Shown: positions 18,248 to 62,137 of the stretch, one piece after another
How positions within the stretch are numbered: position 1 is the stretch's first letter
Layout of the letters: each line of letters opens with the position of its first letter
NCBI RefSeq assembly: GCF_001513675.1
Contig: NZ_CP013859.1
Span: 1,799,081-1,863,080, forward strand
Direction: 5' to 3'
Length of the DNA stretch: 64,000 nt
Origin: Microbacterium sp. XT11
GTDB lineage: Bacteria; Actinomycetota; Actinomycetes; Actinomycetales; Microbacteriaceae
Program-made: the position numbers and the translations under genes
The notes under the pieces: generated by a model
Database searches by the model: none
Seen by the model: only the letters and a program-made list of their open reading frames with translations
Told to the model about the DNA's origin: nothing

Positions 18248-18323
18248 ACGCCGGGGGCGCGGATGTCGGTGGCCCGGCGTAGGTTCGTCTCGTGCGGGAG
18301 GCTCCCGCGGAAGAAGGTGTGAC

Positions 18324-23033: not shown

Positions 23034-23344
23034 CCGCGTCCGCCGCGCACGCCGCGCGGTGTGCCCGACGCGCCCGCCGCGCGGTGTGCCGTGCGCCGTG
23101 TGCGGTGTACGAAACGTCGGAGTTTCGGGGCGACACGCCGCGTGCGGATGCCGTGCGGCGGCGTGTTGCGCGGAAACTCCGACTTTTCGCGCGGGCGCGA
23201 GGCGCGGGGCAGCCGCGAGGGCCGCACGCCGCGCACGCGTTCCGCCGCGCGGGCGCGGGGCGTGGGACCGCCGCGCGGGCGCGAGCCGCGGGACCGCCGC
23301 GAGGGCCGCGGGCCGGGAGCGGCCGCCGGCCGGACGCCTCGCCC
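23034..23344. other. gene-free, very GC-rich intergenic region
   Basis: About 310 bases between the PRTase stop and the convergent DNA ligase stop. It is dominated by CGC/GCG runs (GCGCGGTGTGCC-type short repeats around 23050-23110 and 23200-23335) and contains the palindromic repeat at 23110-23189. I see no Shine-Dalgarno-led frame with normal codon use and take it as non-coding. It probably serves as a bidirectional transcription end. Confidence 0.7.
23110..23189. repeat. dispersed palindromic repeat (CGAAACGTCGGAGTTTC family), intergenic copy
   Basis: The outer arms of this 80-base element pair over about 32 bases with four mismatches: CGAAACGTCGGAGTTTCG at the left (from 23110) against GAAACTCCGACTTTTCG at the right (ending 23189), then GCGACACGCCGC against GCGGCGTGTTGC. 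The same arm sequence recurs inside the TPP gene at 20388-20468 and, degenerate, at 11684-11713. Confidence 0.8.
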
Positions 23345-47269: not shown

Positions 47270-47707
47270 ATGATCACGCTCGATGACACTGATCAGGCGA
47301 TCCTCGCCGAACTCCGGCGGGATGCGCGCGCGTCGATGACGGCGATCGCGGATGCCGTGCACATCTCACGCGCCGGCGCGCACGCACGCATCAAGAGGCT
47401 CACCGACGCCGGCGTCGTCACGGGCTACACCGTGCGCACGGATCCGGTGCTGCTCGGCCACCACGCGAGCGCGTACGTCATGCTCGCTATCGAGCAGGCG
47501 ACGTGGCAGGAGGTCAGCGCACGGCTCCGGGCCATCCCCGAGATCGAGCACATGGCACTCGTCGGCGGAGACTTCGACGTCATCCTCCTCGTGCGCGCAA
47601 CCGACGCCCGCGACCTGCGCCGCATCGTGCTGGAGGACATCCAGGCCATCCCCTCGATCCGTTCGACGCGCACGACGCTCATCTTCGAGGACTTCACGCT
47701 GAGCTGA
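47270..47707 (+). CDS. Lrp/AsnC family transcriptional regulator (BkdR-like)
   Basis: A 145-residue regulator: HTH LDDTDQAILAELRRDARASM then AIADAVHISRAGAHARIKRL (up to about residue 45), followed by a RAM ligand domain (GGDFDVILLVRATDARDL). AAGGGG precedes the ATG. Divergence from bkdABC makes it the likely activator responding to branched-chain amino acids, as BkdR does in other bacteria. Confidence 0.88.
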   Translation: MITLDDTDQAILAELRRDARASMTAIADAVHISRAGAHARIKRLTDAGVVTGYTVRTDPVLLGHHASAYVMLAIEQATWQEVSARLRAIPEIEHMALVGGDFDVILLVRATDARDLRRIVLEDIQAIPSIRSTRTTLIFEDFTLS

Positions 47708-47769
47708 ACGTCAGGCGCCGGTCGAGGTGCCGGTGGTGTTCATCGCATCGACGCGCCCGGTCTGGTCGG

Positions 47770-47909
47770 TCTCGCCGGAGTGGTCGGTGTCTCGCCTGAG
47801 CGGTCGGTGTCTCGCCTGAGCGGTCGGTGTCTCGCCTGAGCGGTTGGTGTCTCGCCGGAGTGGTTGGTGTCTCGCCTGAGTGGTCGGTGTCTCGCCGGAG
47901 TGGTCGCTC
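47770..47909 (+). repeat. 20-bp tandem array, seven units, upstream of the HNH gene
   Basis: Seven units of exactly 20 bases begin TCTCGCC at 47770, 47790, 47810, 47830, 47850, 47870 and 47890. The consensus is TCTCGCCTGAGCGGTCGGTG, with variation mainly at positions 8, 12 and 16. Twenty is not a multiple of three and no gene needs to cross it. The inverted form of the same pattern lies on the other side of the HNH gene (49455-49594). No spacers, so not CRISPR. Confidence 0.9.
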
Positions 47910-47982
47910 TTCACTCTGGAATACCGCGCTGATCTGGCAAAAACACCCTCCCAATGTCGGTGGCCACGCGTTGAATCGGAGC

Positions 47983-49452
47983 ATGAACAGCGCCACGAGC
48001 ATCCTCGATCGGGTCATCTCCGACCTCGATCTCGTGCTGGGTGCCGAGGCCTTGGCGGGGCTGTCGCCGAGCGAACGCTCGAGGGTGCTTCGTCGGGCCG
48101 GTGACGCTCTGCGGCGGGTCGAGGCCGTGGTCGTCGAGACGATCGCCGACCTAGAGGCGGTGGAGCTGCCCGAGGCGCTCGGATGCCGTTCGATGAACGA
48201 GCTCCTGCAGCGGGCCCTTCGCGTCGACGGTGCGACGGCCGGGCGGTTCGTCAAGGCGTCCGCGGGCGCGCGGCGAGAGATGAATCTTCTCTCGGGCGAG
48301 CGCCTGCCCGCACGCTGGCCGAGCCTGCGCGAGGCGATGCTCGACGGCGAGGTCGGCCTGTCGGGCCTGCTCGCGGCCACGGCATCCCTCGATCGGGCAG
48401 GCGACAGGATCGGCATCGACGACCGGCTGCGGGCCGACGCCGAGCTCGCCGATCATGCGCGCGGCATCCTGCGCCGAGAAGACGGCGCTGCTGAGCCGGC
48501 TCCGCCGGCGACACCGGATGACCTGCGTCACTGCGCGCAGCTCATCGCGATGTACCTCGACCCCGACGGATCCGAGCCGACCGAGATCCGGGCGTCACGG
48601 CGGCGGGGCCTCACCCTGGGACGCCTGCAAGATGACGGCACGTATCCGATCCGGGGAAGTCTGCTCCCCGAGGTCACGGCGCAGCTGCAGGCGATCTTCG
48701 ACGCGCAGTTGAACCCGAAGACGGAAGGGCCCGCGGATCTCGGGGTGCGTTTCGTCCCCTCTGAGCAGCTGCCGAACGAGGGCTCGGACGACGTGTTCGA
48801 CGACGACCCGCTGAACCTGCTCGACACGCGCACTCGCGCCCAGAAGCAGCACGATGCATTCGCCGCGGCTCTCGGCATCGCCGCTCGACACGAGGAGATG
48901 CCATCCCTGGGCGGTGCGGCCCCCACCCTCGTCGTGCACGTCGATGCCGCCGAGCTGTCGTCGCTGCGCGGGGCGCAGGGGGCGTCCTCTCAGCCGAGCA
49001 TGCCGGGCTGGGCTTCGCTCCCCGGGATCGAGATGCCGGTGGCTGCTTCCGTGGCCGTGCACACCGCGTGCGTCGGGGCCGTGCAACGCGTGCTGTTCGA
49101 CGAAGGGCGCATCGTGGGGATCAACACGATCGATCGCGTGTTCACCGCGCCCCAGCGCAGGGCGATCGTGCTGCGTGATGCGGAGTGCCTGATCCCCGGG
49201 TGTCACGTGCCCGCATCGTGGTGCGAGATCCATCACGTGGTGGAACACTCGCAGGGCGGTCCCACACACACCGACAACGGGGTGCCGTTGTGCTGGCATC
49301 ACCATCGCACTCTGGATCGCTCCGGGTGGGAGATCCGCATGATTGAGGGGGTTCCGCAGATCCGCGGGCCCGCCTGGTGGGACCCGGATCAGGTGTGGAG
49401 GGTGCCGCGGAGATCGCGGATGCGGGGAGCGCGGGAGCCAGTCGTCGCTTGA
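47983..49452 (+). CDS. HNH endonuclease signature protein, DUF222 / 13E12 family
   Basis: A 489-residue protein of the actinobacterial 13E12 family: an N-terminal helical DUF222 domain (about 20-330; RLPARWPSLREAMLDGEVGL) and a C-terminal HNH nuclease domain with zinc-type Cys (CLIPGCHVP, LCWHH) and catalytic EIHHVVEHSQGG (His417-418) and HTDNGVPLC. GGAG before ATG 47983 fixes the start; the longer open frame would run through the tandem repeats. The role is unknown; such genes occur in many variable copies per genome and are suspected to be mobile or to diversify by recombination. Confidence 0.9.
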   Translation: MNSATSILDRVISDLDLVLGAEALAGLSPSERSRVLRRAGDALRRVEAVVVETIADLEAVELPEALGCRSMNELLQRALRVDGATAGRFVKASAGARREMNLLSGERLPARWPSLREAMLDGEVGLSGLLAATASLDRAGDRIGIDDRLRADAELADHARGILRREDGAAEPAPPATPDDLRHCAQLIAMYLDPDGSEPTEIRASRRRGLTLGRLQDDGTYPIRGSLLPEVTAQLQAIFDAQLNPKTEGPADLGVRFVPSEQLPNEGSDDVFDDDPLNLLDTRTRAQKQHDAFAAALGIAARHEEMPSLGGAAPTLVVHVDAAELSSLRGAQGASSQPSMPGWASLPGIEMPVAASVAVHTACVGAVQRVLFDEGRIVGINTIDRVFTAPQRRAIVLRDAECLIPGCHVPASWCEIHHVVEHSQGGPTHTDNGVPLCWHHHRTLDRSGWEIRMIEGVPQIRGPAWWDPDQVWRVPRRSRMRGAREPVVA

Positions 49453-49454
49453 TC

Positions 49455-49594
49455 GCCGGTGACTCGGGCGGTGTGGCAGTGAACCGGGCGTTGCGCCGGT
49501 GGCTCAGGCGGTGGGCCGGTGACTCAGGCGGCGGGCCGGTGCCTCAGGCGTTGCGCCGGTGGCTCAGGCTGTGTGGCTTGAATCAGGCGACGTG
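49455..49594 (-). repeat. 20-bp tandem array, seven degenerate units, downstream of the HNH gene
   Basis: Units of 20 bases start at 49455, 49475, 49495, 49515, 49535, 49555 and 49575 (GCCGGTGGCTCAGGCGGTGG type). The reverse complement contains CGCCTGAG-N4-CGG with the same internal spacing as the array at 47770-47909, so both arrays are one family in opposite orientation. The array begins two bases after the HNH stop, and its last unit reaches the 3' end of the HAD gene (stop 49585-49583). Confidence 0.85.
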
Positions 49595-50233
49595 CAGTTC
49601 GAAGCCGCTCTCGATGGGCACCACCGACACCTGCGTCAAGTCGGACACATGGAATTCGGGGGAGTGCGCCGTCGCGTGCTTCCCGACGCCGACCACGCGC
49701 ATGCCGGCCGCGTGCGCGGCCTGGATGCCGGCACCGGAGTCCTCGAAGACCACGCAGTCGGCGGGGGCGACGCCCAGCAGCTCGGCTCCGAGCAGGAACC
49801 CCTCGGGGTCGGGCTTGGAGCGGCTCACCCGCTCGGCCGTCACGGCGAGGTCCGGAACAGTCAGGCCGGCCTCGCCCATGCGCGCGTTCATGAGTCGCAC
49901 GTCCGCTGAGGTCACGATCGCATGCGGGTAGGGGCGGAGGTCGGCGAGCAGCCGCTCGGCGCCGAGGATCGCGACGACTCCGTCGACGTCCTCGGCCTCC
50001 GTGGCGAGCATGACCTGGTTCTCGGCGATGTTGATCGCGTGGTCGCGCTCGGGGAGCATGATGGCCATGCTCTGATGCCCCTGCCTGCCGTGGATCACGC
50101 TGAGCACGTAGTCGCGGTCGAGACCGTGCGGCTTCGCCCACTCGAGCCACAGTCTCTCCACGACGGCCGTCGAGTCGACGAGCGTCCCGTCCATGTCGAG
50201 GAGGACGGCGCGGGCGGGGACGATCTCGGTCAT
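49583..50233 (-). CDS. HAD-superfamily sugar-phosphate phosphatase
   Basis: A 216-residue HAD hydrolase, subfamily I. Motif I is LLDMDGTLVDS (nucleophile Asp and acid Asp), motif II is AIVTSADV, motif III has KPDPEGFLLG, and motif IV is CVVFEDSGAGIQAA. It resembles YfbT/DOG-type sugar phosphatases. TACCCT (50245-50240) lies six bases before the ATG and no Shine-Dalgarno is seen, so the transcript is probably leaderless. Its last four residues are encoded by the end of the tandem array. Confidence 0.87.
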   Translation of the reverse strand: MTEIVPARAVLLDMDGTLVDSTAVVERLWLEWAKPHGLDRDYVLSVIHGRQGHQSMAIMLPERDHAINIAENQVMLATEAEDVDGVVAILGAERLLADLRPYPHAIVTSADVRLMNARMGEAGLTVPDLAVTAERVSRSKPDPEGFLLGAELLGVAPADCVVFEDSGAGIQAAHAAGMRVVGVGKHATAHSPEFHVSDLTQVSVVPIESGFELHVA

Positions 50234-50245: not shown

Positions 50246-50358
50246 GTCGCGCTCCCGCGCAGGAACGCCGGCCGGCGCGGGCTCCCGGGAGACCGGGGGA
50301 CTGGTGGGAACGAGGTCGTCACCCACGACCCGGTGAAGCCGCGGTCACCGACGCCCTT

Positions 50359-50422
50359 GCGCGTCACGCCTTCTGCGCGTCACGGCTTCTGCTCGTCACG
50401 GCTTCGGTGCGTCACGGCTTCT
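50359..50422 (+). repeat. four 16-bp tandem repeats
   Basis: Units of 16 bases of the type GCGCGTCACGGCTTCT begin at 50359, 50375, 50391 and 50407. They lie in the gap between the divergent HAD and membrane-protein genes, ending 23 bases before the latter's ATG. They could influence the promoter there. No coding role. Confidence 0.8.
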
Positions 50423-62020: not shown

Positions 62021-62137
62021 GGCGGCGGCGGTGTGGACGCGGCGGCGGTGTGGACGCGGCGGCGGCGGTGTAGACGCGGCGGCGGCGGTGTGGACGCGGC
62101 GGCGACGGTGTAGACGCGGCGGCGACGGTGTAGGTGG
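62021..62137 (+). repeat. tandem array of about six 20-bp units
   Basis: Units of the type GGCGGCGGCGGTGTGGACGC start at 62021, 62041 (a 17-base unit lacking one GGC), 62058, 62078, 62098 and 62118. It lies in the otherwise empty 61954-62207 stretch before the DUF4232-type gene. The period of 20 equals that of the HNH-flanking arrays, although the sequence differs. I see no gene across it. Confidence 0.8.

Follow-up and report, generated by a model that had tools for sequence, protein, structure and literature searches.

The window analyzed here, a stretch of 64,000 nt from the genome of Microbacterium sp. XT11, holds a DUF222/HNH gene of the 13E12 type that is probably induced by DNA damage and lies between two independent minisatellites private to its lineage. 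Many Actinobacteria carry several copies of DUF222/HNH genes, whose role is unsettled. The gene (47983-49452, + strand) encodes a protein of 489 residues. Its left neighbor (47270-47707, +), which we take from the translated sequence to belong to the Lrp/AsnC family of regulators (lrp), and its convergent right neighbor (49583-50233, −), presumably a HAD-type hydrolase gene by its translation, complete the locus. Collectively, the gene belongs to a known family and carries a clear regulatory signature, and the repeats that bracket it look ordinary and fast-changing; the nuclease-repeat unit proposed in the first-pass annotation is not supported. We favor an insertion-prone, damage-induced nuclease gene, in whose spacers the arrays would have arisen as minisatellites.

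The window protein matches PF02720 (DUF222) with 88.2 bits (E 8e-25; Pfam cut-off 24.4) and also the HNH profiles PF13391 and PF01844, both just over the cut-off. An 11-sequence alignment places the HNH motif at 49186-49305 (+). C402, C407, H417, H418, N432, C437, and H441 are invariant in all 11 aligned sequences, and we take them to be the conserved Cys/His/Asn residues with HNH roles. Comparison with the closest named ortholog found, that of Microbacterium sp. MYb72 (75% identical), gave dN 0.19 and dS 0.80, which shows that the coding sequence is under purifying selection. An AlphaFold model built from two sequences was poor (mean pLDDT 36.8). Weak similarity to an McrA-type HNH restriction endonuclease (6ghc, E 0.02) and to the PADLOC mREase_IV model (E 3.5e-4) is confined to the HNH region, and these searches returned no similarity to these or other HNH enzymes outside it. 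The architecture of DUF222 plus HNH is the same as in the 13E12/REP13E12 family (PF02720) of Mycobacterium tuberculosis, which has several to many copies per genome, as do many of the genomes sampled here; the PF02720 search found six DUF222 genes in the 3.48-Mb genome of XT11. Carriage by plasmids or phages was rejected: tblastn against 72,556 plasmid records gave only distant, partial matches in five of them, the array sequence matched none of these records with the low-complexity filter on, and none of the 109 viral-contig stretches matching a pattern encodes a confirmed relative.

Upstream of the gene, TGTCGGTG (47955-47962, +) is followed by an 8-nt spacer (N8, 47963-47970) and the hexamer TTGAAT (47971-47976), and this RecA-NDp/PafBC-like element ends 6 bp before the start codon. 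The RecA-NDp consensus, TTGTCRGTG-N8-TANNNT, was reportedly given by Gamulin in 2004. Compared with its core, ATGTCGGTG at 47954-47962 agrees at 8 of 9 bases, with A instead of T at the first core position; in the hexamer, the spacing of N8 and the final T agree with TANNNT, and the second base is T instead of A. These mismatches to the consensus count against the promoter reading. The pattern TGTCRGTG-N8-TANNNT has six matches in the XT11 genome, among them one 28 bp before the start of a presumably uvrB-like gene, one 28 bp before that of a presumably ftsK-like gene, one at the very start of what we take to be a tagA-like gene, one 76 bp before a putatively hsdM-like gene, and one 190 bp before a small gene; all these names were taken from the protein sequences. 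Upstream of the recA gene of XT11 (L191), the exact core is absent and just the variants TGTCCGTAG and TGTCGGA are found, which also counts against the promoter reading. Two of the four WYL matches in this genome lie about 1 kb apart on the same strand, placed as would be expected of pafB and pafC. PafBC activates DNA-damage genes via RecA-NDp promoters, and this promoter class extends beyond mycobacteria (PMC6789036, PMC8223512). Judged from these sequence features, the window gene would most likely be switched on by DNA damage through a promoter of the PafBC (RecA-NDp) type.

The same type of promoter recurs across the DUF222 family. Genes were called with our own codon-score script, and in many relatives the position of the start codon is not certain; promoter patterns, picked after inspecting the data, were scanned from −220 to +60 around the called starts. 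TGTCRGTG was found at 45 of 98 DUF222 genes and at 20 of 1251 other genes, a comparison in which an upstream gap of 60 bp was required of the background genes and not of the DUF222 genes; the reversed pattern was found at 0/98 and 3/1251. Relaxing the core to TGTC[AG]G[TA]G raised the counts to 54/98 and 34/1251 (reversed control, 2/98 and 11/1251). With a gap of at least 60 bp in both groups, TGTCGGTG precedes 35 of 94 DUF222 genes and 9 of 1251 others. Of the 45 DUF222 genes bearing TGTCRGTG, 44 have T at position 21, where the hexamer after N8 ends. Furthermore, AATGTCGGTGG has 30 matches in 15 genomes (reversed control, 1), and 17 of the 30 lie upstream of a DUF222 match at a distance of at most 1 kb, counted against 66 of the DUF222 matches listed.

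A second, LexA-box-like pattern (TCGAA[CT], 4-5 bases, and a TTCTA-like end) was found at 13/98 DUF222 genes and 6/1251 others; the half-site TCGAAC by itself shows no enrichment (17/98 versus 153/1251, p 0.15). When the 89 of 98 proteins with at least 350 residues were retained (9 dropped) and genes with both patterns were scored as NDp-like, 53 were NDp-like, 12 SOS-like, and 24 neither; 65 of 89 thus have one type, and the 24 genes with neither pattern count against the damage-promoter reading. Both types occur on either side of the midpoint root of the 89-protein tree, i.e., in both deep clades, and the promoter labels require 23 changes on this tree, fewer than in all of 200 shuffles. By eye, the window gene and the paralogs L003 and L004 of XT11 are NDp-like, and L001, L005, and L006 are SOS-like. 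In the latter three, a LexA/SOS-box-like TCGAACATANNTWCTA lies directly upstream of the start codon, so that two damage-type promoters occur within one gene family of this genome.

These promoters connect the sampled genes to the mycobacterial family, since DNA-damage-type promoters occur in both. Rv0515, Rv1702c, Rv3074, and Rv3776 belong to the LexA regulon according to a source that also cites traits of mobile elements (PMC5005354); 13E12 HNH proteins have been proposed to act in a hypothetical LexA-controlled mismatch-repair system (PMC4181829), and REP13E12/HNH/DUF222 has been named as a repetitive element (PMC10589994). Two differences stand out: the sampled genomes favor the RecA-NDp/PafBC-like over the LexA-like type (53 versus 12 of 89), and the window gene is flanked on both sides by short private arrays. 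The putative DUF222 promoters share with the RecA-NDp/PafBC class the TGTCRGTG core, the N8 spacer, and a hexamer ending in T directly before the start, a layout that also precedes the uvrB-like and ftsK-like genes of XT11. They differ from it in that the hexamer is often NNGAAT, not TANNNT. No PafBC link of the 13E12/DUF222 family was found in the open-access papers searched. Under the reading we favor, the paralogs may be driven by the same promoter type or by a LexA-box-like one, and the HNH protein would then act on damaged, recombining, or foreign DNA. With a damage-type promoter sequence at 65 of 89 genes, the label of unknown function becomes a testable proposal, namely that these are damage-inducible nucleases.

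Both arrays are genuine minisatellites, made of short units placed head to tail and unique to the locus. The upstream array (47769-47906, +) contains 6.9 copies of the 20-bp unit GTCTCGCCTGAGTGGTCGGT (93% matches, TRF score 220), so the repeats described earlier in front of the gene are real. The downstream array (49454-49573, +) contains 6.0 copies of the 20-bp unit CGCCGGTGACTCAGGCGGTG (76%, TRF score 128), or, read as a 60-bp superunit, two copies with 83% matches and a score of 168. Seven units had been counted here at first; six are full, and the seventh is a weak copy at 49579-49595 (82%) that overlaps the 3′ end of the HAD gene. Dinucleotide-preserving shuffling, repeated 1000 times per gap, produced TRF scores no higher than 80 for the upstream and 62 for the downstream gap; against the real 220 and 168, both arrays are therefore beyond chance. 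The upstream unit agrees with the 13-base promoter box at 8 positions, and so do 4 of 15 other units; the idea that the array is a multiplied promoter box was rejected on this ground. In being short, intergenic, and mostly unrelated between loci, the window arrays are like other bacterial minisatellites or VNTRs (PMC6749651).

The arrays may nevertheless have some connection with DUF222 genes as a class. With a strong array defined by a TRF score of at least 90 and at least 3 copies, 22 of 174 gaps beside DUF222 genes contain one, against 40 of 1130 other gaps, an approximately threefold enrichment, a point of difference from the bacterial minisatellites or VNTRs compared above. The excess is seen in the XT11 genome (20 stretches, 4 of them centered on DUF222 loci and the rest evenly spread, plus the window; 5/9 versus 11/236 gaps), in 60 stretches of the genus (9/100 versus 17/528), and in 40 stretches of the family (8/65 versus 12/366). 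In gaps of at least 120 bp, Fisher p values were 0.0009, 0.04, and 0.027, respectively, under the strong rule and 0.009, 0.007, and 0.14 under a looser array rule. With strata for set, type of gap, and length outside the array, the Mantel-Haenszel odds ratio was 4.1 (observed 22, expected 9.4); taken separately, the genus gave 2.6 (p 0.06) and the family 4.2 (p 0.008), and the two combined, without XT11, gave 3.2. Compared with the neighbors of other genes of low codon score, the odds ratio was 3.7 (observed 20, expected 14.3, p 0.016; raw counts 22/174 against 4/120 gaps). Around the 92 DUF222 genes of the genus and family stretches, 17 gaps bear an array, and 5.0 are expected from random genes of the same stretches; in XT11 without the window, 3 were found and 0.9 expected (P 0.06).

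These figures carry the marks of their sampling. Since each stretch from the genus or the family was positioned at a DUF222 gene, their background gaps belong to DUF222 neighbors, and the sample is not random because 20 genus stretches hold orthologs of the window gene and the others are top-ranked hits. Several stretches share genomes, so that gaps are not fully independent. Of the 100 stretches from genus and family, 8 yielded no called DUF222 gene; in the calling for the XT11 genome, the DUF222 gene in L056 was missed and a doubtful HNH-only gene (L045, E 3e-6) was counted as DUF222, and the sixth DUF222 locus (L005) lies outside the sampled stretches.

The enrichment gives most weight to an alternative in which the gene gives rise to the arrays as a by-product: the HNH protein, once induced by damage, would cut or nick near its own locus and repair with slippage would breed arrays in the flanks, or frequent recombination at DUF222 loci would do so, each array growing from local sequence. 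It is in line with the threefold excess, with its persistence against neighbors of low-codon-score genes, and with the strong upstream arrays of unrelated units that are found at two of the loci where DUF222 faces the HAD gene, those of XT11 and of the genus genome G001. Against it, only 15 of the 92 DUF222 genes have at least one strong array and 77 have none in either gap; the 40 array-bearing gaps of the background lie apart from any DUF222 gene; and the p values for the genus alone, for the family under the looser rule, and for XT11 without the window are not small; and the gaps in general are not fully independent. We regard this alternative as rather unlikely. A broader form, in which DUF222/HNH proteins are damage-induced nucleases whose activity or recombination breeds arrays, so that copies of the gene mark sites with private minisatellites, seems a little more doubtful still. 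Because of the enrichment, to call the minisatellites independent may be too strong. The excess is a modest clue that DUF222 loci may be hot spots of repair or recombination, and together with the damage-type promoters it is the part of the finding worth following.

An excess of arrays beside DUF222 genes is thus present, but it follows no cassette rule. Arrays of 13-20-bp units lie directly beside the gene at four of the six DUF222 loci of XT11 (the window, L001, L004, and L006), each with a different unit, and L003 and L005 have none directly beside the gene. The listed units differ from locus to locus in general, and the sampled stretches hold many unrelated minisatellites in their intergenic regions. 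The co-occurrence of arrays and DUF222 genes suggested at the outset therefore survives as a weak enrichment, and fails as a rule for the 77 genes without a strong array. In the open-access literature, the match for DUF222/HNH genes together with tandem repeats was work on archaeal plasmids.

Improbable, too, is a role of the arrays in insulating transcription, either through termination in the gap of the convergent genes or as a barrier before the promoter; transcription barriers had been among the earlier suggestions. The downstream array does occupy the convergent gap between the DUF222 and HAD genes, and among background gaps of at least 40 bp in the sampled part of the XT11 genome, 5 of 44 convergent ones hold a strong array versus 6 of 192 others. 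However, no terminator-like site was found in the arrays, they fold no better than shuffled sequence (z 0.49, 0.80, and −1.24), and in the genus genomes G001 and G074 the convergent pair has no array in the called gap. A search of Rfam at gathering scores returned zero matches; on this result, the missing terminator-like site, and the lack of excess folding, an RNA or terminator role was rejected.

The first-pass annotation read the two arrays as one inverted repeat family, serving as targets of the nuclease or as the termini of a cassette that moves or diversifies. What speaks for it is the common period of 20 bp and the motif CGCCTGAG-N4-CGG shared in opposite orientation, which is exact in 3 upstream units and 3 downstream units on the opposite strand and present with up to one mismatch in 5 and 5. 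With every rotation on either strand allowed, the two unit consensuses agree at no more than 13/20 positions, in inverted orientation, with uncorrected P = 0.022 from 20,000 letter permutations and P = 0.020 from 20,000 random intergenic 20-mers of the XT11 genome. When 15 units of 19-21 bp from arrays at different loci were paired, with 19-mers padded and 21-mers cut, 8 of the 104 pairs also agreed at 13 or more positions. The resemblance is weak, since permutations, random 20-mers, and unrelated pairs all attain it, and the arrays do not form terminal repeats related beyond chance. The exact pattern CGCCTGAGN4CGG has 21 matches in the XT11 genome, 6 in the arrays and 15 scattered elsewhere; it was rejected as a family signature. 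Nor does the pattern recur at the five further DUF222 loci of this genome.

Relatives at the same site bear on the cassette as well. Of the 99 genomes of the genus, 35 contain a match to the HAD gene (E ≤ 1e-60), and among 31 HAD loci, namely 30 of these 35 plus MYb72, the HAD gene is faced by a DUF222 gene at four (XT11, MYb72, G001, and G074). The MYb72 ortholog, the single locus found among named genomes, retains the promoter box; TRF finds no array upstream of it, and downstream a 17-bp repeat of 2.1 copies unrelated to the window arrays. G001 has its own upstream array (35 bp × 6.7), whose unit is unrelated to that of the window, and a weak repeat (15 bp × 4.3) that falls just within its DUF222 gene, at the 3′ end as called. 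By TRF, the orthologs in MYb72, G001, and G074 thus show other units or none, and the array ends do not travel with the gene. In five other relatives (L176, L178, L181, L182, and L183), lrp (87-91% identical) directly faces the HAD gene at 16-51 bp, and both the DUF222 gene and the arrays are absent; in L169, L173, L177, and L180, lrp is close to the HAD gene with another gene in between. That gene and arrays are missing together is compatible with a cassette, and the five empty sites fit an insertion of the gene and its spacers in the XT11 lineage. They could instead reflect loss or rearrangement, because in MYb72, G001, and G074 the DUF222 gene is preceded not by lrp but by what we take from its sequence to be a short-chain dehydrogenase (SDR) gene. 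It is not clear that the two arrays form a single family, and they do not belong to a conserved cassette. The compared loci revealed neither a common target nor a cassette with inverted ends nor a unit of diversification, and of all the readings an inverted repeat family is the one we hold least probable.

Several further observations were made along the way. An exact RecA-NDp-like match, TGTCGGTGGCCCGGCGTAGGTT, lies at 18264-18285 of the window, 60 bp before a gene that we take from its protein sequence to be glyoxalase-like. Genome G008 carries paralogs (L090, L094, L096, L098, and L100) with closely similar DUF222 proteins and an identical promoter type, suggesting recent multiplication. 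The 5′ gaps of the DUF222 genes at L090, L098, L105, L119, and L151 contain arrays of long palindrome-like units, e.g., GTTGAGCGAGCGCAGCGAGACGAAAC and CTTCGACAGGCTCAGGGACC, which presumably resemble the dispersed REP elements of actinobacteria. Additional, unrelated intergenic minisatellites occur in the window at 62021-62131 (20-bp units), 50358-50422 (16-bp units), and 23188-23326 (26-bp units).
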